Source of the DNA: Candidatus Zymogenaceae bacterium
GTDB taxonomy: Bacteria; Desulfobacterota; Zymogenia; Zymogenales; Zymogenaceae
Reading direction: 5' to 3'
Assembly (NCBI GenBank): GCA_016931225.1
Contig: JAFGFE010000002.1
Coordinates: 1 to 64,000, forward strand
DNA: 64,000 bases
Shown here: piece by piece, positions 48,974 to 63,817 of the stretch
Position numbering within the stretch: the stretch's first letter is position 1
How the letters are laid out: the number at the start of each line of letters is the position of its first letter
Position numbers and translations under genes: made by a program
The notes under the pieces: model-generated
Told to the model about the DNA's origin: nothing
The model's input: the letters and a program-made list of their open reading frames with translations, nothing else
Database searches by the model: none

Positions 48974-50035
48974 ATGTTAGGAAAGAAAAAAGACGTTATC
49001 GCCATTGATATTGGTTCCAGCTCCATAAAACTGGTGGAGATCAGCGAATCGAAGCGGGGATACACGCTGACGAATTTCGGCATGGCGGAACTGCATCCGG
49101 AAACCATTGTCGATGGAGCGATAATGGATACCGCCGCCGTGGTGGACGCTATCCAGAGCCTCATCGGCGGTTTGAAAATCAAGGTGAAGGATGTGGTGAC
49201 GTCTGTTTCAGGCAACGCGGTTCGAATTCAAAAGATAACGCTCCCCACCATGAGCCAGAGTGAGCTGGAAGAATCCATTCAGTGGGAGGCGGAACAGTAT
49301 ATCCCCTTCGATATCAGTGATGTCAATATCGACTTCCAGATACTCGATACCCTCGATGATGGAAGCGGTCAGATGGAGGTGATCCTGGCTGCGGCGAAGA
49401 AGGACGTCATCAACGAGTACGTCGCGGTGATTACCGAGGCGGGTCTCAATGTCGTGGTCATGGATGTGGATTGCTTCGCCCTGGAAAATATGTATGACGT
49501 GAACTACCAGTTCGAAACAGGCGATATCATCGCCCTGGTGAATGTCGGAGCCAGCCTGACCAATATAAATATTATGAAGAACGGGATATCCTCTTTCACC
49601 CGGGATATTTCCTCCGGCGGAAATCAGTACACCGAGGAGTTGCAGAAGCGCTTCTCCATCAGTTATGACGAAGCGGAGGCCCTGAAGGTAGGGAAGGGGG
49701 GAGGACGGGATATCTCCACCGAAGAAATCATGAAGGTCATCGACCAGGTGTCGGGGGATATCGTTGCATCCGAGATTCAAAAGACGTTTGACTATTTCCT
49801 CTCCCAGGGTACCGCGGATATGATAAACAAGATCTACCTGGGCGGCGGCACATCCAAAACCAACAACCTGACCCGGATGATTCAGGATAAGTCGGGTATC
49901 GCCGTAGAGAAGATCAATCCCTTTGCGAATATTGAGTACAACGAGCGCCACTTCGACGCCGCATATATTCAGGATATCGCTCCGTATGGTGCCGTGGGAG
50001 TCGGTCTGGCCCTTCGGAAGGTGGGTGACAGATGA
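48974..50035 (+). CDS. pilM: Type IV pilus assembly protein PilM
   Basis: Cytoplasmic actin-like ATPase that binds the N-terminus of PilN and aligns the pilus motor. The first phosphate loop AIDIGSSSIKLVEIS (about residues 9-23) and IALVNVGASLTNINIMKNG are FtsA/PilM features. VYLGGGTSKTNN-like residues appear as IYLGGGTSKTNNL. The 353 residues match the family. The pilN start overlaps its stop. Confidence 0.95.
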   Translation: MLGKKKDVIAIDIGSSSIKLVEISESKRGYTLTNFGMAELHPETIVDGAIMDTAAVVDAIQSLIGGLKIKVKDVVTSVSGNAVRIQKITLPTMSQSELEESIQWEAEQYIPFDISDVNIDFQILDTLDDGSGQMEVILAAAKKDVINEYVAVITEAGLNVVVMDVDCFALENMYDVNYQFETGDIIALVNVGASLTNINIMKNGISSFTRDISSGGNQYTEELQKRFSISYDEAEALKVGKGGGRDISTEEIMKVIDQVSGDIVASEIQKTFDYFLSQGTADMINKIYLGGGTSKTNNLTRMIQDKSGIAVEKINPFANIEYNERHFDAAYIQDIAPYGAVGVGLALRKVGDR

Positions 50036-50601
50036 TAAAACTAAACCTTCTCGCCACTCGTGAGTTAAAGAAAAAGGAAACCATGCAGCAGCAGTTTCTG
50101 CTTGGCGCGTTTTTTCTGATACTCACCATTGCCGCCATTGGCTATTTTCACATGAATATCAACAAGCAGATAGACGAAGCCATAGAGGAAAAGATGCGGG
50201 TGGATAAAGAAGTGGCCGATCTGAAGAAGGAAATCGGAGACCTTGAAAAATTCAAATCAATGGTAGACGATCTTCAGAAGAAGAAGGATACGATAAACAA
50301 CCTGGAAATAGAGAGAAACGGCCCGGTACGGGTATTCGCCGCCATGACGGAGGCCATCCCTCCGGAAGTATGGATCATTGATTTCACCCAGAACGGAATG
50401 AGCCTGACGATTAACGGGTATGCCGTTGATAATGAAACCCTGGCGACTTTTATGAGAAGTCTCACTAAAAGCAACTATTTTAACAATATTAAGCTTGCGA
50501 AAAGCGAGAAGAGCGAATACGAGGGACATACCGTCAATCGATTTTCGTTGACGATGGCGATTGTATACTATTCACCTGAGACGCCGGAAGCGACGGAATA
50601 G
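50032..50601 (+). CDS. pilN: Type IV pilus assembly protein PilN
   Basis: Inner-membrane protein of the alignment complex. MIKLNLLATRELKKK is the typical N-terminus that docks to PilM. A single membrane helix (FLLGAFFLILTIAAIGYF, about residues 24-41) is followed by a coiled-coil stretch (about 45-90) and a ferredoxin-like periplasmic domain (GPVRVFAAMTEAIPPEVWIIDF). 189 residues. It overlaps pilM by four bases. Confidence 0.93.
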   Translation: MIKLNLLATRELKKKETMQQQFLLGAFFLILTIAAIGYFHMNINKQIDEAIEEKMRVDKEVADLKKEIGDLEKFKSMVDDLQKKKDTINNLEIERNGPVRVFAAMTEAIPPEVWIIDFTQNGMSLTINGYAVDNETLATFMRSLTKSNYFNNIKLAKSEKSEYEGHTVNRFSLTMAIVYYSPETPEATE

Positions 50602-50675
50602 ATGAAAAAGGCGGACTTTTTACACATCTATTTGAATACTATACCGGACGGCGGGATATTATTTGAGGCGTAAAG

Positions 50676-51236
50676 ATGGCTTTAACACTTGATTCGGTAA
50701 AAAACATCCCAAATCAATACAAGTTTCTCATTCTCTTGGGCGTTATGGTGGGTATCGGTGCCGGATATTATTTCGGCATATACACTGGGAAGAAGGAGGA
50801 ATTGAGAAAAAACCTTGAGGCGTTGAACAAATCCAAGACGGAACTCCAGAAACTTCAGGACACGAAGAAGAACATGGATGCGTACAAGGCCAAGGTCGCG
50901 GAGCTGGAAGCGGAGTTGAATCTTCTTTTGGTTGCCATTCCCACCAGCTCAGAGATTCCCGAAATTCTCTCACAGATAGACAGCAAAGGTAATGAGGCCG
51001 GTCTTGAGTTTCTCCTCTTTCAACCCGTCGGCGAAACCCAGGTGGGTGATTATTACGAGGTTCCCGTATCCATTCGCGTCAAGGGGACATATCATGGCTT
51101 TGCGACGTTTCTGGACAAGCTGCGCCAGCTTGATCGAATTATTAATGTGAGAAATGTCAAGATGACCCGTGGTACTGTTGTCGATAATGAAATAATTCTT
51201 GATATAACGTGTCGTGTGGTTACGTTTAGATTTTAA
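50676..51236 (+). CDS. pilO: Type IV pilus assembly protein PilO
   Basis: Partner of PilN in the periplasmic alignment ring. One membrane helix (FLILLGVMVGIGAGYYFGI, about residues 17-35) is followed by a coiled coil (ELRKNLEALNKSKTELQKLQ) and a ferredoxin-like domain with VPVSIRVKGTYHGFATFLDKL. 186 residues. A 74-base gap to pilN shows no terminator. Confidence 0.93.
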   Translation: MALTLDSVKNIPNQYKFLILLGVMVGIGAGYYFGIYTGKKEELRKNLEALNKSKTELQKLQDTKKNMDAYKAKVAELEAELNLLLVAIPTSSEIPEILSQIDSKGNEAGLEFLLFQPVGETQVGDYYEVPVSIRVKGTYHGFATFLDKLRQLDRIINVRNVKMTRGTVVDNEIILDITCRVVTFRF

Positions 51237-51277
51237 GAGGATAAGCGGGTGAAGATAGGGAGATTGGAGTCATACAT

Positions 51278-52255
51278 ATGAAAGTTCGTTCCCTCTCCGT
51301 CATTATACTATTCATTGTATCTCTTCCGTTCATCACGGGATGTTCGGACCTGTTGGATCGGTATGGAGATAAGATACCGTTTCTTGATACCGAGGAAGAG
51401 GCGCCCAAGCCGACGATCCACGAGCTGAGCGAAGACGATCCGACGAAAACCTCGATCCCCCCCGAGGGAACACTCCCCCCGGGTGAAGCACCGGAAACCG
51501 CAACCGGACCGGAAGTGGCACCCGAGGGCGGCCCTCCGGCCCCGGAAGGCCAGCCCCCCGTCGTTGAAGGTACTGAAACGACGACACCGCCCGAAGGGGG
51601 TGAAGCCGGACCACCGGCGGAGGGAGGCGAAACACAGCCACCCACGGAGGTGGCTGAGACGGGGCCTCCGGTGGAAGGGGGAGAAACAGCGCCTCCTGTA
51701 CCTGGAGAAACGACCACTGAAGGGACATCGCCCGCTCCTGAAACGGCAGCCCCGGAAGGCGGGGTAGAGACGATCCCGGGCGAAACAGCGCCTACGGAGA
51801 CTCCGCCCGTCGAGACCGTCCCGACGATATCGGATACGTTCGGCATGGATATCGCCATGCTAACAATGGAAGGATCGGCGGAGGGGGATGAGGTTGTCAG
51901 CTCCGAGGACTTTTATTACGACACCAGGGAGCGGAGAGATCCGTTCAGACCGTTTACCCTAAAGGTTGAAACGACCGTGGTTGTTCCTCCAGAGGAATTG
52001 ACTCCTCTGATGAAATATAAACTATCTCAGCTTGAACTCAAGGCGATTATTTATGATCCGGAACTGGGAACGGGCGTGGCCATGGTGCAAGATCCCTATA
52101 AGAAGGGATTCAGCCTGTATGTTGGTACGAATGTGGCGGAGGGACGTGTTGTGAAAATTACCGAGGACGAAGTACAGGTGGAAATCAATTACCTGGACTT
52201 CTACGGTGAAGAACAAACAAGAATTGAGACTTTAACATTAGCCGGGAGGCAATAA
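51278..52255 (+). CDS. pilP: Type IV pilus lipoprotein PilP with long low-complexity linker
   Basis: Links the PilNO ring to the secretin. The signal sequence ends in ITGC, so Cys22 is the predicted lipidation site. Residues about 50-185 are a disordered linker rich in Pro, Glu, Thr and Gly (repeated PPxEGG and PPVEGGE elements), longer than in model PilP proteins (about 170-180 residues in total). The conserved beta-domain is at the C-terminus: RRDPFRPFTL, then YDPELGTGVAMVQDPYKKGFSLYVG. 325 residues. Confidence 0.92.
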   Translation: MKVRSLSVIILFIVSLPFITGCSDLLDRYGDKIPFLDTEEEAPKPTIHELSEDDPTKTSIPPEGTLPPGEAPETATGPEVAPEGGPPAPEGQPPVVEGTETTTPPEGGEAGPPAEGGETQPPTEVAETGPPVEGGETAPPVPGETTTEGTSPAPETAAPEGGVETIPGETAPTETPPVETVPTISDTFGMDIAMLTMEGSAEGDEVVSSEDFYYDTRERRDPFRPFTLKVETTVVVPPEELTPLMKYKLSQLELKAIIYDPELGTGVAMVQDPYKKGFSLYVGTNVAEGRVVKITEDEVQVEINYLDFYGEEQTRIETLTLAGRQ

Positions 52256-54997
52256 ATGTCTATCCATAATAGATACGCACTCTTTCGCTTCCTCAGCCTG
52301 CTCGCGATAAGTATCATGGCGCTCTCTTCGTGCGTTACAACAGGAACGGGTACATCAACATCCGGTGCGAATCTGTCTGTCGACGTTACCTCAGTGAGTG
52401 AGTATGATGATCGGTTCGTTGTTCTGCTTGAGGCGGATGCTTCCGTCACTTACACGCCGTATCGTCTGGAATCTCCGCTGCGGCTTGTCGTGGATATTCC
52501 TGATGCGGAATTTGTGGAATCCGGCACGGAATCGATCGTTGATAACGTCACCATTACCGAGATAAAGAAACTGGATTATGACAGTGACGGGATCAGTGTC
52601 GCCAGGCTGGAGATTTACCTGAGCGATGATACAAACTACTATATGTCAAAACCTCAGGATAATCAGGTGCAGGTGGAGATTCAAAAGATAGATCCATCCT
52701 CCATCTCCTCGGAAACCGCCGACGACATACCGTACACTGCGGATGACTCCGGTACTCCTTCGTATTATGAGATTTCGGAACCCGAAAAGACGGTATGGGA
52801 CAATCCCGCCACGAAGATTATCAATATTGTGACGGACAGCGATGCCGACGGGACCAGCGTCACCATACTGGGCGACGGCGCGATGTTAGACTACGAGACG
52901 TTTGTGCTCGACGATCCAAATCGCCTTGTCATCGATTTCTCGGGAATTTCCAGCAACTATCCAAACGAGACGATACCTGTGGAAAGCGCCGATATCAGCG
53001 CTATTAAGGTGGGTATTCATCCCGATAAGGTGAGGATCGTCCTGGAGTCTGATAATCCCACGATGAGCGATTACAACGTGTACCCGGTGGACAACAAACT
53101 TATGGTTGTTTTCCGTGAGGGAACGGTCGGTACACCCGCGAACACGGGAAGCGTTCCGACTGAAACGCGTACGCCCACAAGCGATGTGGTCGTTACCGGC
53201 GTGGATGTAAGAACCGACGGCGATATCTCCAGCGTTGTGATATCCACCACCGGAAGTTCCGATTTCACGGCGAAAATGGTATCCGAGCGAAGTATTATCG
53301 TTGACATTCCAAATGCTCTGATCGGGAACGGTGTCGACACGGAGCTGGACTTTTCTTCGAATTTAAATACGCCTATTTCATATGTGAACACAACCCAGGG
53401 CGAGGATTCGGTTCGAATCGGCATCGTGCTTTCAGAGAAGGCCGCATACAACTACTATGCCCAGGGCAATGCGATCGTTGTCGACTTTTCGATGAGCGAT
53501 ACGGTGACCATGGATCCGACAATTGCGGACCTCTCCCCCAAACCGGTGATAACGGAGGGCCTGTCGCAGCCGGCCACGCTCCCCGGGGAAACTCCGTCGG
53601 TGGCGCCCTCAGAGGTGATGACCCCCGATGAGCTGGAAGAAGTCGCCGAGATGGCCATCACTGAGGAGGAAAAGAAATACACGGGAAAGAATATCACCCT
53701 GATCTTCTCCGATGCGGATATACAACAGATATTCATGCTCATCGCCGAGGTGAGCAGTCTGAACATACTTGTCGATCCTGATGTCCGGGGAAACATCACT
53801 CTTCGACTGGTCAATGTTCCCTGGGATCAGGCCCTTGATATCATCTTGGAAAACCAGAATCTGGGGATGGAGCGAGAGGGAAACGTGATACGCGTCGCCA
53901 GGAATCAGACCCTGAACGCCGAAAGGGAGGCGGAACTTACCAGTCGTCGCGCCCTGGAGGAACTGGAGGAACTCGTTACTCGAAAGATCGATCTGAGCTA
54001 CGCCGATCTCCCCAGCGTAACGGCGGTGATTGCTCCGATGCTCAGCGATAGGGGCGCCATAACCGAGTTTTCTCAAACCCAGTCGCTCCTGATTACCGAT
54101 ATACCCTCCCGGCTCGACCCGATTGTCGAAATCATCAACCAGCTTGATGTTGCCACACCGGAAATCAGGCTGGAAGCACGGATTGTGGAGATGAACGACA
54201 GCTTCACCCAGGAGCTGGGTGTCAACTGGATCGCCGGATGGAACGAGGAGGCGACGGCGGGTGATTCCACGATAAAGGGGGCTGTGGGAACGCTGGATAA
54301 TGCCCTGATAAATCTCGATAATTACTTCGACCCCGCAACATTGATATTCCCGAATCCCGCAACGACGTCAACCCTGGGAATCGGAGGGGCCTCGGTTCTT
54401 TTGGGATTTTTGGACGACGCACTGAGGCTGGAGCTGCAGCTGAAGGCGCTTGAACAGATGGGAGAGGCCGAGGTCATCGAAACGCCGAAGGTTCGGGTTC
54501 TCAACAACGTGACGGCGGAATTTATCATCACAAGAAGTATCCCGATACGAAACGTCACCGAAAGCAGCGATGATACCGGAAACGTTACCACATCGGGCGA
54601 AGTCGACTATCAGGATATCACCACGGAGCTTAAGATCACGCCGACCATCTCCGCAGATGAGCGGATAAAGATAGAAATAGATCTTCTGCATGAGACACAG
54701 GGCGAGGCGGTTATCTTGAACATCGGCGGTGCGGATAACACCTATTATATCGAGGATACAAAGGAACTCACCACCGAGGTGCTTGTTGACAATCGAGATA
54801 CAATAGTCATCGGCGGTCTCTACCGGAAGGACGTCAATGAAACCGAGACAGGATTCCCGCTGCTCAAAGACGTCCCGCTGTTCGGATGGGCGTTTAAGAC
54901 GAAAAATACAACGGAAAGCAGACGGGAGCTTCTGATATTCTTGACACCGACGATCATTCGGGAAGAAGAGCTGATGATGTCCGAAACCGGATTGTAA
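52256..54997 (+). CDS. pilQ: Type IV pilus secretin PilQ (lipoprotein)
   Basis: Forms the outer-membrane channel for the pilus. The N-terminus ends IMALSSC, so Cys26 is a likely lipid anchor. AMIN domains (peptidoglycan-binding; visible in RLVVDIPDAEF, RLVIDFSGIS and SIIVDIPNALI) lie at about residues 40-115, 175-255 and 290-395. The N0/STN domain begins near KNITLIFSDADIQQIFMLIAE, and N1 and the secretin domain follow (VIETPKVRVLNNVTAEF, DTIVIGGLYRKDV, FLTPTII). 913 residues is long, mainly because of three AMIN domains. Confidence 0.95.
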   Translation: MSIHNRYALFRFLSLLAISIMALSSCVTTGTGTSTSGANLSVDVTSVSEYDDRFVVLLEADASVTYTPYRLESPLRLVVDIPDAEFVESGTESIVDNVTITEIKKLDYDSDGISVARLEIYLSDDTNYYMSKPQDNQVQVEIQKIDPSSISSETADDIPYTADDSGTPSYYEISEPEKTVWDNPATKIINIVTDSDADGTSVTILGDGAMLDYETFVLDDPNRLVIDFSGISSNYPNETIPVESADISAIKVGIHPDKVRIVLESDNPTMSDYNVYPVDNKLMVVFREGTVGTPANTGSVPTETRTPTSDVVVTGVDVRTDGDISSVVISTTGSSDFTAKMVSERSIIVDIPNALIGNGVDTELDFSSNLNTPISYVNTTQGEDSVRIGIVLSEKAAYNYYAQGNAIVVDFSMSDTVTMDPTIADLSPKPVITEGLSQPATLPGETPSVAPSEVMTPDELEEVAEMAITEEEKKYTGKNITLIFSDADIQQIFMLIAEVSSLNILVDPDVRGNITLRLVNVPWDQALDIILENQNLGMEREGNVIRVARNQTLNAEREAELTSRRALEELEELVTRKIDLSYADLPSVTAVIAPMLSDRGAITEFSQTQSLLITDIPSRLDPIVEIINQLDVATPEIRLEARIVEMNDSFTQELGVNWIAGWNEEATAGDSTIKGAVGTLDNALINLDNYFDPATLIFPNPATTSTLGIGGASVLLGFLDDALRLELQLKALEQMGEAEVIETPKVRVLNNVTAEFIITRSIPIRNVTESSDDTGNVTTSGEVDYQDITTELKITPTISADERIKIEIDLLHETQGEAVILNIGGADNTYYIEDTKELTTEVLVDNRDTIVIGGLYRKDVNETETGFPLLKDVPLFGWAFKTKNTTESRRELLIFLTPTIIREEELMMSETGL

Positions 54998-55023
54998 TAT
55001 TTTTTTGATTGCTTGCGTATGAC

Positions 55024-55061
55024 GGGTGCGCTCGGGATGTTGTTCCGACGCACCCTTTTTT
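55024..55061 (+). terminator. Terminator of the pilus operon
   Basis: GGGTGCG (55024-55030) pairs with CGCACCC (55049-55055), with an inner CGG/CCG pair, and is followed by TTTTTT. It ends the operon 27 bases after pilQ and separates it from aroC. Confidence 0.85.
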
Positions 55062-55080
55062 CTCGCGTAGGATGGTATGT

Positions 55081-56244
55081 GTGACCAAGTTTTCCTTTCA
55101 TACCGCCGGTGAGTCCCACGGGAGGGCCCTTGTGGTTATTGTGGACGGGGTCCCCGCCGGTTTTTCGATAGATCTGGACGCCGTTAATACGGATATGGCC
55201 CGACGCCAGAAGGGATACGGCCGGGGCGGCAGAATGGCCATTGAGAGTGATCGGGTCCAGACGATTTCCGGCATAAGGAACGGGAAGACCATCGGGAGCC
55301 CGGTGGCGTTTTTAATAGAGAATCGGGATTGGGAAAACTGGGAACGATATATGTCGGCCGATCCGGGGATCGATCCGGGTCGTGAAGTGACAAGACCGAG
55401 GCCGGGGCACGCCGATTTGGTCGGCGGTATGAAATTCGGGCACAGGGACCTCAGAAACGTGCTCGAGCGGTCAAGCGCCCGGGAAACGGCGGCGCGGACG
55501 GCCGCAGGCGGCCTGGCCAAGGAGCTGCTTCGTCATTTTCATGTGGTGTTTCATTCATATGTGGTTGATCTCGGGGGTGTGAGCATCGAGTGTGAGGACG
55601 TTTCGTATGAGGAAAGAAGCGTACACGCCGAATCCTCGCCCTTTTCAACCCCCGTACCCGATTATGATGACGATCTGAAAATCATGGTCGACACGGTGAA
55701 GGAAAGCGGAGACACGCTGGGGGGTGTTGTCGAGGTGGCGGTTGTTGGTCTTCCCCCCGGTCTCGGTGAGGCCGTACGATGGGATACGAGGCTCGATGCC
55801 CGGCTTGCCGCGTCGATCATGAGTGTTCCGGCCGTAAAGGGGGTGGAAATCGGGGACGGTTTTAATCTGTCCGGACGGTACGGCTCTGAGGTACACGACG
55901 AAATTATTCGCATAGGAAACGGGCGATATCGCCGTAAAACAAACCACATGGGGGGAATGGAAGGCGGCATGACCAATGGAATGCCGCTTGTGGTGCGGGC
56001 CGCGATGAAACCGATACCGACGTTGATGAAACCGCTGGATACCGTGGATATTGAGACAAAACAAAAGGTGTCGGCTGCGGCGGAGCGGTCCGATGTCTGC
56101 GCCGTGCCCGCGTGCGCCGTGGTTGTCGAGGCGATGGCGGCCGTGGTGTTGACGGAAGCGTTTTTGTGCCAATTCGGCGGGGCGAATAAGTCGGATATAG
56201 AAGAAAATTATCGACGATATGTGGAGAGAATCGATTCGTTTTGA
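55081..56244 (+). CDS. aroC: Chorismate synthase
   Basis: Last common step of aromatic amino acid synthesis, using reduced FMN. SFHTAGESHGRALVVIVDGVPAG at the N-terminus, RPGHADLVGGMKFGHRDLRNVLERSSARETAARTAAG and GGMEGGMTNGMPL are signature segments. I prefer GTG 55081, with AGGA at a suitable distance, giving MTKFSFHTAGESHG; an ATG at 55072 would add three residues. About 387 residues. Confidence 0.96.
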   Translation: MTKFSFHTAGESHGRALVVIVDGVPAGFSIDLDAVNTDMARRQKGYGRGGRMAIESDRVQTISGIRNGKTIGSPVAFLIENRDWENWERYMSADPGIDPGREVTRPRPGHADLVGGMKFGHRDLRNVLERSSARETAARTAAGGLAKELLRHFHVVFHSYVVDLGGVSIECEDVSYEERSVHAESSPFSTPVPDYDDDLKIMVDTVKESGDTLGGVVEVAVVGLPPGLGEAVRWDTRLDARLAASIMSVPAVKGVEIGDGFNLSGRYGSEVHDEIIRIGNGRYRRKTNHMGGMEGGMTNGMPLVVRAAMKPIPTLMKPLDTVDIETKQKVSAAAERSDVCAVPACAVVVEAMAAVVLTEAFLCQFGGANKSDIEENYRRYVERIDSF

Positions 56245-56774
56245 ATCGGGGAACAAACATAGTTTTGACCGGATTTATGGCCACGGGGAAAAGCGCTGTG
56301 GGCAGGATCGTTGCCGACTCCATCGGATATGCCTTTATGGATCTGGACAGTCTCATCGAAGAGGAGACGGGGGTGTCGGTCTCGAAGATATTCGAGGTTG
56401 AAGGTGAGACGTCGTTTCGAGACAGGGAAACGAAAAAGATTGAAGAGGTCTCCTGCATGCGAAAGACGGTGATATCCACCGGGGGGGGCGCGATGATACG
56501 CCCGGAAAACAGAGAGATGCTCCGGAAGTCCGGTATAATCGTGTGTCTGGAAGCTACGGTCGAGGAAATCCTCAGTCGTGCGGGAAGAAGGGAATCCCGG
56601 CCGCTGATCAATGTGGAAAATCCGCGAGAAATCGTCGCCAAGTTGTTGGAAGAGAGAAAATCATTTTATGATGAAGCGGATGTGCACATAGATACCAGTG
56701 GAAAGCACAAGAAAGAAATCGCCGGAGAGATAATATCACTGTGGGAAGAGAGAAAACGGTCATGGAACGGATAA
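56241..56774 (+). CDS. aroK: Shikimate kinase
   Basis: Phosphorylates shikimate. The P-loop GFMATGKSAVGRIVA is at about residues 11-25, FMDLDSLIEEETG (shikimate-binding Asp), TSFRDRE, VISTGGGAMIRPENRE and ESRPLI follow. The TTG start at 56241 overlaps the aroC stop by four bases. 177 residues. It overlaps the following aroB by 13 bases, so the aro genes are tightly coupled. Confidence 0.93.
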   Translation: MNRGTNIVLTGFMATGKSAVGRIVADSIGYAFMDLDSLIEEETGVSVSKIFEVEGETSFRDRETKKIEEVSCMRKTVISTGGGAMIRPENREMLRKSGIIVCLEATVEEILSRAGRRESRPLINVENPREIVAKLLEERKSFYDEADVHIDTSGKHKKEIAGEIISLWEERKRSWNG

Positions 56775-57841
56775 CTGTCGCCCTGGGCGACAGAAGCTAC
56801 CCGGTGTACGTTGGGAGCGGAATTATCGGTAAAATCGGATCTCTGGTGGAGGAACGTCGGGCATCGATACTGACCGATGAACATGTTGCAACGCTCTTTG
56901 GGGAGCGGGTGCAAAAAGCAATTGACACATCCGGGACCCAGACACACATGATCGTGGTTCCACCGGGAGAACAATCGAAGCAATTTTCTACCCTCGAACA
57001 CGTCTATGACGAACTGCTGTCATTTCGGTCGGACCGAAAGACGCCGCTCGTCGCCCTGGGCGGCGGTGTGATCGGAGATCTGGGGGGATTCGCCGCCGGG
57101 ACGTTTCTGAGGGGGATCCCGTATATCCAGGTTCCCACAACGCTTTTGGCCCAGGTTGATTCGTCGGTGGGAGGGAAGACGGCGGTAAACCATCCGCTTG
57201 GAAAAAATCTCATCGGTGTATTTTACCAGCCGCGTTTTGTTCTTGCCGATGTGGAAACGCTCTCGTCACTTCCCGAGGAGGAATATCTTTCGGGACTGGC
57301 GGAGGTGATAAAGCATGCCGTTATTGCCGATGAAGAGCTTTTTTCATATCTTGAAACGCATCATAACCGGGTAATGTCTCGGGATAGAGACGCTTTGATG
57401 AAAATGGTTACTACCTCGGTCCGGATTAAATCGCACGTGGTCTCACAGGATGAGCGTGAAGCGGATCTTCGGAGAATTCTCAATTTTGGACATACCTTCG
57501 GTCATGCGATTGAGAGACTTTCCGGCTTTGGTACGATACGTCATGGACATGCGGTGGCGACGGGAATGGCCGCCGCCGTGCGAATATCCGAGAAGCTGGG
57601 GGAGATCGATTCAAATGATGTCGCACGTATTATCACCCTGCTTGAGGCATATCGGTTTCAGACCGAACTTCCCGGATATTCGAACAACGATTTTGTAAAT
57701 GCAATTAATTATGATAAAAAGGCCCAGGAGGCTCACATCAATTTTGTATTGACAGCGGGTATCGGTTATGTTACTGTTAAAAAGATGAGGGCCACGGATA
57801 TAGTTGATATTATTGGACAATTAGGGGCTTCTCGTGGCTGA
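56762..57841 (+). CDS. aroB: 3-dehydroquinate synthase
   Basis: Converts DAHP to 3-dehydroquinate with NAD and a divalent metal. LVALGGGVIGDLGGFAAGTFLRGIPYIQVPTTLLAQVDSSVGGKTAVNHP (given here as the landmark regions GGGVIGDLGGF and VDSSVGGKTAVNHP) is followed by EVIKHAVI and the metal-binding NFGHTFGHAIE. I start at ATG 56762 (MERITVALGDRSYPV). 359 residues. The next gene starts eight bases before its stop. Confidence 0.95.
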   Translation: MERITVALGDRSYPVYVGSGIIGKIGSLVEERRASILTDEHVATLFGERVQKAIDTSGTQTHMIVVPPGEQSKQFSTLEHVYDELLSFRSDRKTPLVALGGGVIGDLGGFAAGTFLRGIPYIQVPTTLLAQVDSSVGGKTAVNHPLGKNLIGVFYQPRFVLADVETLSSLPEEEYLSGLAEVIKHAVIADEELFSYLETHHNRVMSRDRDALMKMVTTSVRIKSHVVSQDEREADLRRILNFGHTFGHAIERLSGFGTIRHGHAVATGMAAAVRISEKLGEIDSNDVARIITLLEAYRFQTELPGYSNNDFVNAINYDKKAQEAHINFVLTAGIGYVTVKKMRATDIVDIIGQLGASRG

Positions 57842-60683
57842 TGAAAAAAAGACTGATACTCAGACGCCACCGGGTATTTCCCACGAAAACGATACTCCTT
57901 CACCCGCCAAGGTAACATCTTCCCCTTCTCCCAGTTCGGTTTTCGTTACAAAAACCCCGGAAATGATCAAGTACGAACAGATGCTTGAGAAAAATCCGGC
58001 GTCCCGTGTATTTGCCCCCCTTGCAGATCTCTACCGCAAAGCAGGAATGATTGACGAAGCGATCGAATTGGCCCGAAAGGGTGTGGAAAAGTATCCAAAA
58101 TACCTCAGCGGCAGGGTCTCGTTGGGGAGGGCGTATTTCGACAAGGAAATGTACGATGAGGCCCGTGATGAAATGGAACGGGTCGTTGCGATAACGCCGG
58201 ACAATCTTCTGGCAAATAAAGTGCTGGGAAATGTATACATAGCCCAGGGCAATCCTGATCAGGCCGTTGAGTATTTTAAAAGAGTTCTCGAGCTGTCTCC
58301 CGATGATGAAGAAGTGTCACATATTCTTGAAGGCATCGGTCACGGTGACAAGAAAAAACAAAAAGAGCCCCGTGACACCGAGAAAAAAGCGGGAGAAGAT
58401 GACATCATAAACTCTGTTCTTCGGGATTTGTCCGCCGAAGAAGAGGCCGGAGATGAGTTTGAAGACGAGATCGAAGATGAAATCGAAGATGAAATTGAAG
58501 ACGGGGCTTATGAGGAAGGGCTGGATGACGATTTCTTCGACCTTGACTCAGGCGAAGACTCAACTGACCTTCTTGATGAGGAGATGTCCGAGATACTTGG
58601 CCAATCTGAAGCCGATATAGGGGCCGAGGGAGAAATTCTCGAACAAGTGAGTGACGATGTTTTTGAAGAACCCGATGACGTCCCGGAAAAGTTGGGAGAT
58701 GATGACCTGGCGGCCCTGGTGGCGGAGGCGGGAAGTTTCGAAGATGAGTTGTCTCCGGGTGATGACGATGATGTTTTATCCGATATTGATCTGGATGAAA
58801 GCACATCGGCTCCCGAATTTGAGGGAGATATAGAACAAGCGGGAGGTGATATATCACACGAGGAAGATTCCTTCGAGTTCACGCTGGATTCGACCGAAGA
58901 CGTTGAAACCGATTCTCTGTCCGACGATATTGATCTGTCTTCGATGATGGATGAAATTCCGGAGGAGTTTCTGGCATTTGATCAGGTCGAAAATGAGAGC
59001 AAAAGTATCTCTCTGGGTGAATCAGGGGATATCGACGGCCTGGATGGCGACCTGCTTGACCAGGACATATCGGGTGAGGATTTTTCCTCGGAATTCGACT
59101 TAGACGATACAGGTGCCGCAAAAGAGACTCCCGATGAATTCAGCGATACCGTAGACTCCTCTGGTGTTGAGACGCCCGGGGAGGATCTCTTGGAGCAGGA
59201 TATCTCAATGGAGTTCGACTTCGACGACACGGGTGTGGTGAAGGAGGCTTCCGATGAATTCGGCGAGAGAGAGACCGCTCCGGGGATAGAAATACCTGAG
59301 GAAGGCATCGGTGATGCGGATCTCCCGATGGAATTCGGCCTCGACGACACTGGTGCGGTGGGGGAGATTTCCGATGAGTTCGGCGAGAGAGAGATAGACT
59401 CGGGGATGGAAATACCCGAGGAAGGGATCGGTGATGCGGATCTCCCGATGGAATTCGGCCTCGACGACATAGATTCGGTGGGAGAGATTTCCGATGAATT
59501 CGGCGAGGGAGAGACCGCTCCGGGGATAGAAATACCCGAGGAAGGCATCGGTGATGCGGATCTCCCGATGGAGTTCGGCCTCGACGACATAGATTCGGCG
59601 GGGGAGGTTTCCGATGAGTTCGGTGAGAGAGAGACCGCTCCGGGGATGGAAATACCCGAGGAAGGCATCGGTGATGATGACATCCCGATAAAATTCGACT
59701 TCGACGACGACGATGCACTGAAGGAGGCCCCTGACGAATTCGGTGATACAATGGTTTCTTCCGGTATCGATATCCAAAAGGAAGGTATGGCCGAAAGCGA
59801 TCTTGGACCGGGCGTCGGTTTTAATCTCTCGGATGAACCCGGTGTTGACATGCCTGTTTCACACGAGGGGATAGAAGGGGGGGACTTTTCGGGCGATGAT
59901 TCCGTGAGTTTCGACACTGGTGAGGGCATGGTTGAGACGGACGATCCGTTTTTCACCATGGAGACCCCCACCGACGAATCCATGGAGCAGGAAATGGCTT
60001 TCGATTCATTTGAAACACCGACAGAAAGCGAGGCGTTTGAGGAGCAGCCCGAAGAGTCGGGATTTGAAACCCCTACGGAAAGCACCGAATTCGATGTGTC
60101 TCAGGAGGTGGAAGCTCCTTTAGAGATGGAAACGCCTTCCGGAACGGAGGAGACATCCGTTTTTACCGAGGAGGATAGAGAAGAAGAGCATTTTCTGGAA
60201 GGCAGAGATGATATCGATTTTCACGAACTGGAAGATTTGGCGGAACCACAGGTCGAGGAAGATAGATCACTCAGCATCCACGAAGAGTTCGGCGATGATG
60301 ATTTTCCCGAGGAAAGATCTGATGACGACGAGGATATGTTGCCCCTGATTGATGAAGGTGACGGGGTGCCCGACGATGAGGGAGTGAGTATCACCACCGA
60401 GACGATAGCGGATATATATGTCAAGCAGGGTCATTTGGACAAGGCTCTGGGGATATATGAGGATCTCTACCGGGTGTATCCCGAAAATGAGTCCCTTAGA
60501 GAAAAATTGGAACATGTCCGGATGCAGATGACCTCGGGCCTGCCCGGGGAGAGCGGAGAAGAGGGACTTCGTGCGGATATCGATATATCACCGGAAGATA
60601 CGCAGCAATCAGAACGTGCAATCGAGCGTCTGAACAGCTGGCTTGAAGATATACGGAAGAAGAGAAGGGATATTTCCCAATAA
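57834..60683 (+). CDS. Large acidic TPR protein with 40-residue repeats (FimV-like in part)
   Basis: 949 residues with no signal peptide or membrane helix, so probably cytoplasmic. N-terminal TPRs span about residues 45-165 (AGMIDEAIELARKGVEKYPK, YIAQGNPDQAVEYFKRVLELSP). A long, very acidic middle region follows. It includes at least five 40-residue repeats (EFGERETAPGIEIPEEGIG type) at about 423-662. The C-terminal TPR-like segment ETIADIYVKQGHLDKALGIYEDLYRVYPENESL (landmarks IADIYVKQGHLDKAL and YRVYPENE) resembles the FimV C-terminus. FimV, however, has a LysM domain and a membrane helix that are absent here. The GTG start overlaps aroB. Confidence 0.78.
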   Translation: MADEKKTDTQTPPGISHENDTPSPAKVTSSPSPSSVFVTKTPEMIKYEQMLEKNPASRVFAPLADLYRKAGMIDEAIELARKGVEKYPKYLSGRVSLGRAYFDKEMYDEARDEMERVVAITPDNLLANKVLGNVYIAQGNPDQAVEYFKRVLELSPDDEEVSHILEGIGHGDKKKQKEPRDTEKKAGEDDIINSVLRDLSAEEEAGDEFEDEIEDEIEDEIEDGAYEEGLDDDFFDLDSGEDSTDLLDEEMSEILGQSEADIGAEGEILEQVSDDVFEEPDDVPEKLGDDDLAALVAEAGSFEDELSPGDDDDVLSDIDLDESTSAPEFEGDIEQAGGDISHEEDSFEFTLDSTEDVETDSLSDDIDLSSMMDEIPEEFLAFDQVENESKSISLGESGDIDGLDGDLLDQDISGEDFSSEFDLDDTGAAKETPDEFSDTVDSSGVETPGEDLLEQDISMEFDFDDTGVVKEASDEFGERETAPGIEIPEEGIGDADLPMEFGLDDTGAVGEISDEFGEREIDSGMEIPEEGIGDADLPMEFGLDDIDSVGEISDEFGEGETAPGIEIPEEGIGDADLPMEFGLDDIDSAGEVSDEFGERETAPGMEIPEEGIGDDDIPIKFDFDDDDALKEAPDEFGDTMVSSGIDIQKEGMAESDLGPGVGFNLSDEPGVDMPVSHEGIEGGDFSGDDSVSFDTGEGMVETDDPFFTMETPTDESMEQEMAFDSFETPTESEAFEEQPEESGFETPTESTEFDVSQEVEAPLEMETPSGTEETSVFTEEDREEEHFLEGRDDIDFHELEDLAEPQVEEDRSLSIHEEFGDDDFPEERSDDDEDMLPLIDEGDGVPDDEGVSITTETIADIYVKQGHLDKALGIYEDLYRVYPENESLREKLEHVRMQMTSGLPGESGEEGLRADIDISPEDTQQSERAIERLNSWLEDIRKKRRDISQ
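59101..59820 (+). repeat. Six tandem 120-base repeats in the acidic TPR gene
   Basis: Units of exactly 120 bases follow one another with steps at 59101, 59221, 59341, 59461, 59581 and 59701. The middle three to four are nearly identical (for example GGAAGGCATCGGTGATGCGG recurs at the same place in several units), and the outer ones are diverged. They encode 40-residue acidic units. The gradient from identical centre to diverged ends is typical of repeat arrays growing by unequal exchange. Confidence 0.93.
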
Positions 60684-60820
60684 AAAAAGGACTTCTTTGT
60701 GTTTTTGTTATATGATTAAATATGTTAAAATCTTAATTCATTGTTTATGTCAAAAAAATACCAATGTGTGCGGCTGCTGCAAAATGATTCTTTCGTATAT
60801 GTGATGTGTGTTTGTTTTCT

Positions 60821-61183
60821 ATGATTGATTTTAAAGAAGTTCTCCAGAACGTTGTGGAATCGGTCCCCGGTTCTCTGGCGGGAATAATAATCGGCAAGGA
60901 CGGAATCATACTGGAACATGTGACCATGTCTCAAAACGGCATCGACGTGGAATTGATCGGCGCGGAATATGCGGCTACAATGATGGAGGTGCACAAGCTT
61001 GCTTCCATCTTTCATTTCAATGATCTTAAAGACATCACGATTGTTCTTGATACGATAACCTTGATTGTTCATGTCATATCCGAGGAATACTACTTTATTC
61101 TTATCACGTCGCGGGGGGCCGATCTCGGAAAGGGCAGGTACCGGGTGAGGGTCGGCTCACTGAAGCTCAGGGAGATGTTTTAG
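60821..61183 (+). CDS. Roadblock/LC7-domain protein (MglB-like)
   Basis: 120 residues of a single Roadblock fold: FKEVLQNVVESVPGSLAGIIIGKDGIILE, then the later IVLDTITLIVHVISEEYYFILITSRGADLGKGRYRV (given as landmarks FKEVLQNVVE and YFILITSRGADLGKGR). Roadblock proteins such as MglB in Myxococcus regulate Ras-like GTPases that set cell polarity and pilus activity. No MglA-type GTPase is in the window. I start at ATG 60821; the frame is open five codons earlier. It lies 137 bases after the acidic TPR gene. Confidence 0.82.
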   Translation: MIDFKEVLQNVVESVPGSLAGIIIGKDGIILEHVTMSQNGIDVELIGAEYAATMMEVHKLASIFHFNDLKDITIVLDTITLIVHVISEEYYFILITSRGADLGKGRYRVRVGSLKLREMF

Positions 61184-61210: not shown

Positions 61211-61239
61211 GACTGCGCACAAGCAGTCTTTCTTTTTTT
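61211..61239 (+). terminator. Terminator after the Roadblock gene
   Basis: GACTGC (61211-61216) and GCAGTC (61223-61228) form a six-pair stem with a six-base loop, followed by TTTCTTTTTTT. It lies between the Roadblock gene and aroQ, so aroQ probably has a separate promoter or depends on read-through. Confidence 0.82.
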
Positions 61240-61250
61240 AGGCGAAGACG

Positions 61251-61697
61251 ATGAATGTACTGATTATAAACGGTCCGAATCTCAATATGCTCGGTAAACG
61301 AGAGCCGGAGATCTACGGGTCTTTCACATATGACGATCTTGTCTCCCGTATCAAAGATGCCGCGACGAATCTCGGCATTCAGGTGGACGTTTTTCAGTCG
61401 AATGTCGAGGGTGAAATCGTCGACAGAATCCAGTCGTCGGAGCGGTTTGACGGCATCGTTATCAATGCAGGGGCGTATACGCACACGTCAATCGCCATAC
61501 GCGACGCCTTGCTGGTATGGTCATCCCGCATTCCGGTTATCGAGGTTCACCTTACAAATATTTTCGGCAGGGAGGAATTTCGAAAACATTCCTACATCTC
61601 GGATATCGCCCGGGGGGTTATAGCAGGGCTCGGTGTCGAGGGGTATGTGCTGGCCCTTTCGTGGATTGCCGGGGAGACACCGGGAGATACACGGTGA
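61251..61697 (+). CDS. aroQ: 3-dehydroquinate dehydratase, type II
   Basis: Converts 3-dehydroquinate to 3-dehydroshikimate. INGPNLNMLGKREPEIYG, FDGIVINAGAYTHTSIAIRDAL, and IEVHLTNIFGREEFRKHSYIS hold the active-site Tyr, His and Arg. 148 residues is the standard dodecameric type II size. The following peptidase gene starts in its stop codon as GTGA. Confidence 0.96.
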   Translation: MNVLIINGPNLNMLGKREPEIYGSFTYDDLVSRIKDAATNLGIQVDVFQSNVEGEIVDRIQSSERFDGIVINAGAYTHTSIAIRDALLVWSSRIPVIEVHLTNIFGREEFRKHSYISDIARGVIAGLGVEGYVLALSWIAGETPGDTR

Positions 61698-62764
61698 ATA
61701 CGGATCGTATCGAGCGTCTTCAGGAGTATATCAAGAGTCTCGATCTTGACGGCGTCCTCATCACCGATATGAAGAATGTCCGGTATTATACCGGCTTCAC
61801 CGGCAGTGATGGGATGCTTGTTCTGGGATTGGAGGGGGGGGTCTTCCTGACCGATGGGAGGTATGTGACACAGGCGTCCGGCGAGGTGTCCGGGTTTGCC
61901 GTAGAACGATACATGAGAAAAGCGGACGGGGTCAGAAAATCCGTCGCCGACCTGGGATTGACGAGAGTCGGGGTTGAATCGTTTCATATATCTCTGGCGA
62001 TGTATAAAAACGTATCGAAAGTGACGGGATTTGCACGATTTGTTCCCATTGAAAGAGACCTCGCGGAACTGCGGATGATCAAGTCCGCTGATGAGATTTC
62101 TCTGATGCGCCGCGCCGTGTCCATTTCCGAAGCCGCTCTGGAAGACGTCGCAAAGATGATCTCCCCCGGGGTTTCCGAGCGGGACATTGCGTCCGAGCTT
62201 GAGTATGTGATCAGAAAACGGGGAAGCGGGCCGCTTCCGTTCCCGGTCATCGTCGCCACAGGGGAACACGGTGCTCACGTGCACGCATCACCGGGGGATC
62301 GAACGATTGAAGCGGGGGATTTCGTGATTATCGATTTCGGCGCGGAGTATCGCGGATACGCCTCCGACCAGACGATTACGTACATGGTTGGGAGATCGAA
62401 CGATCGAGCAAGGGAGGTGTATGACGCCGTTCGTGGCGCCCAGAGAGAAGCGATAACACGGGTACGGGCGGGAGTGTCCGCCGTCGATATCGACGCCGCC
62501 GCTCGGGACTTTCTGGCCGAAAAGGGGTACGGTGAATTTTTTACCCACGGCACCGGCCATGGTGTGGGCCTGAACGTGCACGAGCCGCCGACAATCAGTT
62601 CACTGGGAGAGACGGTCCTTGAGGCGGGCATGGTCATTACCATCGAGCCCGGGGTCTACATCCCCGGTTGGGGGGGGGTTCGGGTGGAGGACATGGTTTT
62701 GGTGGAGGATGACGGCGGTTCGGTATTGACAACGCTCAGCAAATCATTTAAAGTAGTTAGCTGA
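61694..62764 (+). CDS. pepQ: Xaa-Pro aminopeptidase (M24 family)
   Basis: Cleaves N-terminal residues before proline. The N-terminal creatinase-like domain begins MNTDRIERLQEYIKSLDLDG. The metallopeptidase half has the five ligands: IIDFGAEYRGYASDQTIT (two Asp), FTHGTGHGVGLNVHEPP (His), and ITIEPGVYIPG and GVRVEDMVLV (Glu). I start at GTG 61694, overlapping the aroQ stop; the open frame to 61517 lies within aroQ. 356 residues. An aroQ-peptidase-efp order is common. Confidence 0.92.
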   Translation: MNTDRIERLQEYIKSLDLDGVLITDMKNVRYYTGFTGSDGMLVLGLEGGVFLTDGRYVTQASGEVSGFAVERYMRKADGVRKSVADLGLTRVGVESFHISLAMYKNVSKVTGFARFVPIERDLAELRMIKSADEISLMRRAVSISEAALEDVAKMISPGVSERDIASELEYVIRKRGSGPLPFPVIVATGEHGAHVHASPGDRTIEAGDFVIIDFGAEYRGYASDQTITYMVGRSNDRAREVYDAVRGAQREAITRVRAGVSAVDIDAAARDFLAEKGYGEFFTHGTGHGVGLNVHEPPTISSLGETVLEAGMVITIEPGVYIPGWGGVRVEDMVLVEDDGGSVLTTLSKSFKVVS

Positions 62765-62801
62765 TTTTTGTAAAAAATACTCATCTTTAGTGAGTGATGC
62801 C

Positions 62802-63365
62802 GTGTATTCAACAGCAGAGTTTCGAAGAGGTTTGAAGGTCGAGATCGACGGTAAACCGTTCATCATTGTCGAGTTCCAGCACGTAAAGCCGGGCAAGGGC
62901 GGTGCATTTGTTCGTACAAAGCTTAAAAATCTTGAAACGGGCGCGGTTTTGGAAAAAACATTCCGCTCGGGTGAAAAAGTGGGGAAGCCTTCCCTCGAAG
63001 AGAAGGAGATGCAGTATCTCTATGGAGACGACGACGGTTTTCACTTCATGGATACAGAGACATACGAGCAGGTATTCCTCACCCATGACCAGGTGGGCGA
63101 TTCCGCAAATTTTCTCATTGATGAGCTGGTCCTGACGGTTCTGTATCATAACAACAACCCCATATCGATCGAACTTCCCACGTTTGTAGAGATGCCGGTG
63201 GTTAAGACCGATCCGGGCGTGAAGGGGGATACCGCAACCGGCGGCACCAAGCCGATCACGCTCTCATCAGGTCTCGTGGTACAGGCGCCTCTGTTCATTG
63301 ATGAGGGTGATGTTGTGAAAATCGACACCCGCAGTGGAGAGTATATCGAACGCGTTTCTCGATAA
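62802..63365 (+). CDS. efp: Elongation factor P
   Basis: Relieves ribosome stalling at polyproline stretches. The three OB-like domains and the loop [17 protein letters not shown], with the lysine that is modified in many species, are present. I prefer GTG 62802, giving [20 protein letters not shown], the usual N-terminus; GTG 62790 would add four residues. Neither start has a strong ribosome binding site. About 187 residues. A lysine modifier (EpmA/EpmB) is not in the window. Confidence 0.93.
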
Positions 63366-63394
63366 AGAAACCGAGACAGATAACAGGGAGTGCT

Positions 63395-63817
63395 ATGAAT
63401 ATCAAGGAAATAAAGGACATTATTAAGGCGATTGAGGGTACGGATATCTCGGAGATTGATGTTCATAGCGCAGGTGATCGCATCAGGATACGAAGATACC
63501 TCGGTGAAGTATCGGCGCCTGAAAAAAAATCATCAAAGGCAAAAAGAAAAAGCGACGGTGTGCCCGACAATGTTGATCTTCTCTCTGTTACATCGCCGCT
63601 GGTGGGCACCTTCTATCGCTCATCCGCTCTCGATTCACCTCCGTTCGTGGAGGTCGGCCAGGAAGTCAGAAAGGGCGATGTGCTGTGTATCGTCGAGTCA
63701 ATGAAACTGATGAACGAGGTCGAAACTGAAGTAGACGGTGTGATAGTCTCTATACTGGTTGAGAACGGCCAGCCGGTGGAATACGGACAGTCGCTTTTTC
63801 TGCTGGAACCCCTCTAA
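63395..63817 (+). CDS. accB: Biotin carboxyl carrier protein of acetyl-CoA carboxylase
   Basis: Carries biotin for malonyl-CoA synthesis. The N-terminal helix-forming part [20 protein letters not shown] is followed by a charged linker and the C-terminal biotinyl domain. The biotin-attachment motif is [10 protein letters not shown] near residue 107, and the domain ends [13 protein letters not shown]. 140 residues. accC begins 24 bases later. Confidence 0.96.

Follow-up and report, generated by a model that had tools for sequence, protein, structure and literature searches.

A TPR protein with a long acidic linker is encoded before mglC beside the type IV pilus operon in Desulfobacterota

The window, the whole 64,000-nucleotide stretch of a Candidatus Zymogenaceae genome analysed here, carries pilMNOPQ, aroC, aroK, aroB, a TPR-encoding ORF, a Roadblock-encoding ORF, aroQ, pepP, efp and accB in that order, all on the plus strand. 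The pil genes (48974..54997) lie upstream of the TPR gene and are co-directional with it, and aroC, aroK and aroB (55009..57841) separate it from pilQ. The TPR ORF (57834..60683), whose product we named TPR-A, encodes a cytoplasmic TPR/acidic protein of 949 residues; its GTG start falls within the last codons of aroB, so that the two ORFs overlap, and an AGGGG motif lies just 5' of it. The initial annotation, which had described this TPR ORF followed by a Roadblock ORF between aroB and aroQ, placed two real ORFs correctly. In its longest reading the Roadblock ORF spans 60806-61183 (125 codons, first listed start GTG 60806), and ATG 60821 is the more likely start, since homologues begin there; the predicted product (60821..61183) then has 120 residues. 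The gap before aroQ contains a terminator-like hairpin and T run (61211..61228, plus strand), recognised by consensus match only. The genes aroQ, pepP, efp and accB follow at 61251..63817, with aroQ starting at 61251, and the contig continues beyond the window with accC (C2:63842-65176), sgmX (C2:65332-67854; 1.3 kb past the window) and an AAA ATPase gene (C2:67937-68962). Within the pil operon, PilP (51278-52255) has a long low-complexity stretch rich in Pro, Glu and Thr.

The Roadblock protein had been taken for an MglB-type regulator, and its nearest relative proved to be MglC. Robl_LC7 matched it at 16.4 bits against a Pfam cut-off of 23, which explains why it escapes a genome-wide Pfam survey. 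Its best PDB match by phmmer was Myxococcus xanthus MglC (7ct3, E 1.3e-10), and a family profile built from 21 members, one M. xanthus MglC among them, found MglC in the PDB at 9e-47, with the next Roadblock protein at 0.005 and MglB absent from the listed matches. An AlphaFold model (pLDDT 88) adopted a Roadblock/LC7 fold whose top Foldseek match by E-value was again 7ct3 (3.5e-10); MglB structures also superposed well (TM about 0.87), as expected for two proteins that share one fold. The window protein stood apart from the genome's own MglB in a tree with long branches (support 100/99), and its alignment with MglC ran from end to end, with no sign of the extensions that MglB, 162 residues long in this genome, has at both termini. 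In M. xanthus MglC, K104, R106 and R110 bind RomR, and F25, D26 and I28 bind MglB (PMC10329633, PMC12719032). Equivalents of all three residues of the KRR surface are present in the window protein (GKGRYRVR), K104 and R106 being invariant across 21 aligned MglC sequences. On the FDI surface, D26 and I28 equivalents are kept and F25 is replaced by K, at a position where F varies in other synteny-supported MglCs. M. xanthus MglC is reported to have no GAP activity on MglA (PMC10329633). Judged by its sequence, the Roadblock gene is the mglC of this organism, and the predicted role of its product is that of an adaptor linking RomR to MglB, not that of the GAP MglB. An MglB identity was rejected on the phmmer and profile results and on the presence of a separate mglB beside mglA; the window gene is itself not in an operon with mglA.

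TPR-A carries TPRs at both ends, as first described: Pfam TPR_2 matched at E 4.5e-21, with its best stretch at residues 131-158, and a weaker TPR/PPR-type match lay near residues 857-878. Alignment delimits an N-terminal TPR module at residues 36-170 (57939..58343, plus strand), 28-50% identical to 12 relatives. The long acidic repeat region noted earlier is also real, forming a low-complexity linker at residues 169-846 (58338..60371, plus strand) with 37% D/E (250 D/E versus 22 K/R), a net charge of about -229 and an in-frame 120-bp (40-aa) tandem repeat of about 4.2 copies with 86% match (59208..59716, plus strand). At 679 residues this linker is the family's longest; that of other members with both ends spans 22-404 aa. 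The C-terminal module (60336..60680, plus strand), defined by alignment and a structure model, comprises one TPR (TETIADIYVKQGHLDKALGIYEDLY) and a C-terminal helix at about 60591-60677, which bears a Trp in 40 of the 41 members scored and is followed in most members by a basic tail (RKKRR, RRRR). The C-terminal helix of RomR binds MglC and requires its Trp to do so (PMC12719032); the TPR-A tail likewise contains a conserved Trp, yet with its basic charge, docking on MglC would call for another face or another binding mode. Homology between the two tails was rejected, RomR-C being acidic and reading EK..WEVVP.LAE, the TPR-A tail basic and reading WL..I.RRR; a loose analogy was kept.

Searches with other models set TPR-A apart from named proteins. 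In agreement with the initial annotation, Pfam and NCBIfam searches found no LysM match, and no membrane helix was predicted (best 19-residue Kyte-Doolittle mean 0.77); Pfam detected no receiver domain. The C-terminal segment had been called FimV-like, but no NCBIfam FimV model matched at E 0.01, and together with the missing LysM and membrane helix this led us to reject FimV. Profile and fold searches, a PDB profile search included, returned generic TPRs or nothing significant. Identity with SgmX was discarded once the genome's true SgmX had come to light a short way beyond the window: TPR-A scored 2e-6 against an SgmX N-terminal profile, compared with 3e-174 for M. xanthus SgmX, which is itself in the profile. 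We found no description of the TPR-A family in the open-access papers searched.

A search for an MglA-like gene elsewhere in the genome, proposed at the outset, was successful, with a canonical mglA-mglB pair on contig C33. The SgmX homologue past the window has 840 aa and is 38% identical to M. xanthus SgmX over residues 2-240 (E 4e-51). RomR, encoded on contig C15, has a receiver domain, an acidic linker and a C-terminal EKVAWEVVPELAE; the search pattern was based on residues that PMC12719032 names, and in M. xanthus, the positive control, it recovered a 419-aa RomR. A scan of named genomes gave the M. xanthus gene order as pilMNOPQ, a lipoprotein-like gene, mglC, efp, accB, accC and sgmX, the mglC of this cluster being identical in sequence to the 7ct3 stretch. 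As MglC and SgmX are both known, and so is this type of cluster beside the pil operon, the arrangement, initially described as unrecognised, is new in one part, the uncharacterised TPR-A before mglC.

Further small GTPase and Roadblock genes were observed. A second MglA-like GTPase (60% identity) occupies part of a 381-aa frame roughly 10 kb away from romR (G000:C15:58710-59288). A small GTPase and Roadblock pair, a candidate polarity or signalling input, heads a chemosensory operon comprising cheR, MCP, cheW, cheY, cheB and cheA genes (G000:C18:127315-133000, L116). On the same contig, a different 119-aa Roadblock gene follows a smc-like ORF and precedes a ftsY-like ORF (G000:C18:106128-106394, L004), such a gene likewise following a smc-like ORF in G027 (L019), and another Roadblock gene is directly 3' of a gene for a receiver-domain protein whose C-terminus is TPR-like (G000:C18:212135, L001).

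We surveyed 148 genomes of the phylum, which are related to one another and in some cases incomplete. Strong MglC matches (E < 1e-25) were present in 27 genomes spanning 14 families, and canonical MglA (at least 72% identity, a threshold set at a visible gap after the data had been seen) in 28. The two occurred together in 26/27 MglC genomes and 26/28 MglA genomes (Fisher p 1.6e-25 across the 148 related genomes), and this association is not explained by linkage, as MglA is on another contig. PilQ exceeded its curated cut-off in 26 of the 27 MglC genomes compared with 78 of 121 others (p 8e-4, same 148 related genomes); mglC and pilQ are usually neighbours, so their co-absence from incomplete genomes is not independent evidence. 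SgmX (E < 1e-25) was found in 23/27 MglC genomes. Named loci from Nitrospirota, Myxococcota and Desulfuromonadia added 15 further MglC genomes, 14 with PilQ over the cut-off and 13 with canonical MglA. The anticipated co-occurrence with pili was borne out for MglC and PilQ in nearly all cases; we found neither a lack of an MglA-like partner nor the pair in pilus-less genomes, the two outcomes that the initial annotation had named as counting against it.

Of the 25 informative phylum genomes, 21 had a TPR-A homologue immediately 5' of mglC, and the same placement was seen in Nitrospirota loci. It held even where aroB is not a neighbour, and the stop and start codons of the two genes often abut. 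Recurrence of the same TPR-Roadblock pair in many genomes indicates that the pairing is not due to chance. TPR-A was lacking from four MglC-bearing genomes of the phylum and from Myxococcota mglC loci, of which several of Polyangia type, along with Myxococcus, have a lipoprotein-like gene there; Polyangia loci have the order aroB-X-mglC-aroQ. Nitrospirota members carry Phe or Leu in place of the helix Trp. Family f19 has TPR-A before pepP-efp, with PilQ but without MglC, and retains the terminal Trp, suggesting that the Trp helix is not strictly a mark of MglC. In family f2, TPR-A, aroQ and an SgmX-like gene lie beside minor-pilin/PilY1-like genes; MglC is absent and the Trp tail is lost. TPR-A is tied to this neighbourhood and to pili, and usually, although not always, to MglC.

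Several variants depart from the usual form. In Geobacter sp. AOG1 and H2geo (L055, L072, L076), TPR-A is a 191-193-aa protein made of an acidic stretch and the C-terminal module, suggesting that the N-terminal TPRs are not always needed. Family f27 has a single ORF of 578-606 aa in which aroB is fused to TPR-A (L123, L130, L141; G029, G065, G126). Two loci without mglC (L144, L145; G004, G043) have TPR-A and an SgmX-like gene near minor-pilin/PilY1-like genes, with aroQ between them in L145. A single mglC ORF (L134:5836-6360, G090) has a 54-aa N-terminal extension like the TPR-A C-terminal TPR, possibly a fusion or remnant, and an internal start is possible. A 564-aa TPR-A-like protein in G001, found in an unrelated neighbourhood and with a different C-terminus, was treated as a paralogue.

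We propose, with a probability of about 0.6, that the Roadblock gene is mglC and that TPR-A is a conserved cytoplasmic scaffold acting with MglC in an MglA/MglB/RomR/SgmX module that controls the adjacent type IVa pili. The genomes show directly which genes these are, their synteny, how they co-occur and how their domains are laid out; the binding of TPR-A, its polar location and the direction of its effect on pili are what we infer. In M. xanthus, MglC is recruited by RomR at the pole and itself brings in MglB; MglA-GTP acts on pili via SgmX (PMC7519303, PMC11580455). With orthologues of MglA, MglB, MglC, RomR and SgmX in one genome, the same circuit is the simplest reading, and polar RomR would recruit MglC, and MglC in turn MglB, as in M. 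xanthus. The C-terminal TPR and Trp-basic helix of TPR-A would dock on MglC, its N-terminal TPRs would bind a pilus-machine component or one on the SgmX/PilB side, and the long acidic linker may supply reach and charge. TPR-A would thereby couple MglC, and through it MglB, RomR and MglA, to the type IVa pilus machine, handing the polar state of MglC on to pilus assembly. Of the polar-landmark or pilus-switch pair originally suggested, polarity-GTPase control of the neighbouring pili is retained, given that MglA, MglB, RomR and SgmX are all encoded, and the MglB and FimV labels are dropped. Weighing against a scaffold, the Myxococcota polarity switch works without TPR-A, the four phylum genomes mentioned above have MglC and no TPR-A, and families f2 and f19 have TPR-A and no MglC. 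A bolder version, which we regard as conceivable though not probable, holds that TPR-A is an undescribed, dedicated MglC partner, which throughout Desulfobacterota and Nitrospirota connects type IVa pili with the MglA switch, that it is ancestral and was lost or never present in Myxococcota, and that the Trp-basic helix is the dock.

The same observations permit other roles for TPR-A. It might be mainly a pilus-machine factor that recruits PilB or PilM, like SgmX or SopA, and share an operon with mglC without binding MglC. SgmX has a similar layout, with TPRs on either side of an acidic middle (PMC7519303), and families f2 and f19 keep TPR-A without MglC, in the one with an SgmX-like gene near minor-pilin/PilY1-like genes and in the other upstream of pepP in genomes that have PilQ. 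However, adjacency to mglC in 21/25 informative genomes, often translationally abutting, favours direct partnership, and we consider this alternative unlikely, if worth keeping in view. It is improbable that TPR-A binds MglC in competition with MglB, its basic helix on an acidic MglC face being a putative mimic of the MglB KRK surface, so that it would be a brake on the RomR-MglC-MglB loop and not a scaffold. The basic residues after the Trp in most members fit this idea, as does the positive surface that MglB uses on MglC (PMC10329633), but the window MglC has K for F in its FDI motif, which would weaken the binding of a basic ligand there.

The position between aroB and aroQ, along with the single aroB-TPR-A ORF of family f27, could be read as marking TPR-A as a housekeeping partner of shikimate enzymes with mglC as a passenger. 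We find this very improbable, given that TPR-A is not beside aroB in Nitrospirota and f19, that Polyangia keep aroB-X-mglC-aroQ without TPR-A, and that the tracking of MglA by MglC is unexplained by aro genes. We give least credence to the original view of the pair as a GAP of MglB type and a polar landmark resembling FimV: structural overlap of the Roadblock fold with MglB and the TPR at the TPR-A C-terminus agree with it, yet the profile singles out MglC and lists no MglB, a separate mglB accompanies mglA, and TPR-A has neither a FimV-model match nor LysM nor a membrane helix.

Nearly everything established about the MglA/MglB/MglC/RomR/SgmX switch comes from Myxococcus, an organism in which the presence of two motility systems complicates matters. 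Our data suggest a pilus-linked version of the switch in many Desulfobacterota, Geobacter relatives included, with an extra conserved component beside mglC; for Nitrospirota, the suggestion is limited to MglA, MglC and pili. These findings raise the questions of what recruits MglC to the pilus machine and whether these bacteria have switchable pilus polarity.

Each part of the locus can be set beside a known counterpart. FimV of Pseudomonas is a polar, type IV pilus-linked protein with a C-terminal TPR, which TPR-A shares, although TPR-A lacks LysM, a membrane helix and a FimV model match. RomR (MXAN_4461) and TPR-A both consist of a folded N-terminal part, a long lineage-specific linker and a C-terminal helix with a Trp, but TPR-A has no receiver domain or EK..WEVVP motif, its tail is basic, and the RomR gene lies at another place in the genome. 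Like SgmX (MXAN_5766), the MglA-GTP effector for type IV pili, TPR-A is cytoplasmic, has two TPR ends and an acidic middle, and is encoded in the same cluster. The window MglC and M. xanthus MglC (MXAN_5770, PDB 7CT3/7CY1) are both 120-aa Roadblock proteins with DGI and GKGRY..R surfaces in common, whereas the window protein is 25% identical and has K at F25 of the FDI motif. A pilMNOPQ…mglC…efp-accBC-sgmX cluster is common to the two genomes, and the same AAA ATPase gene follows sgmX in both; the gene preceding mglC differs, encoding a lipoprotein-like protein in M. xanthus and TPR-A in the window.
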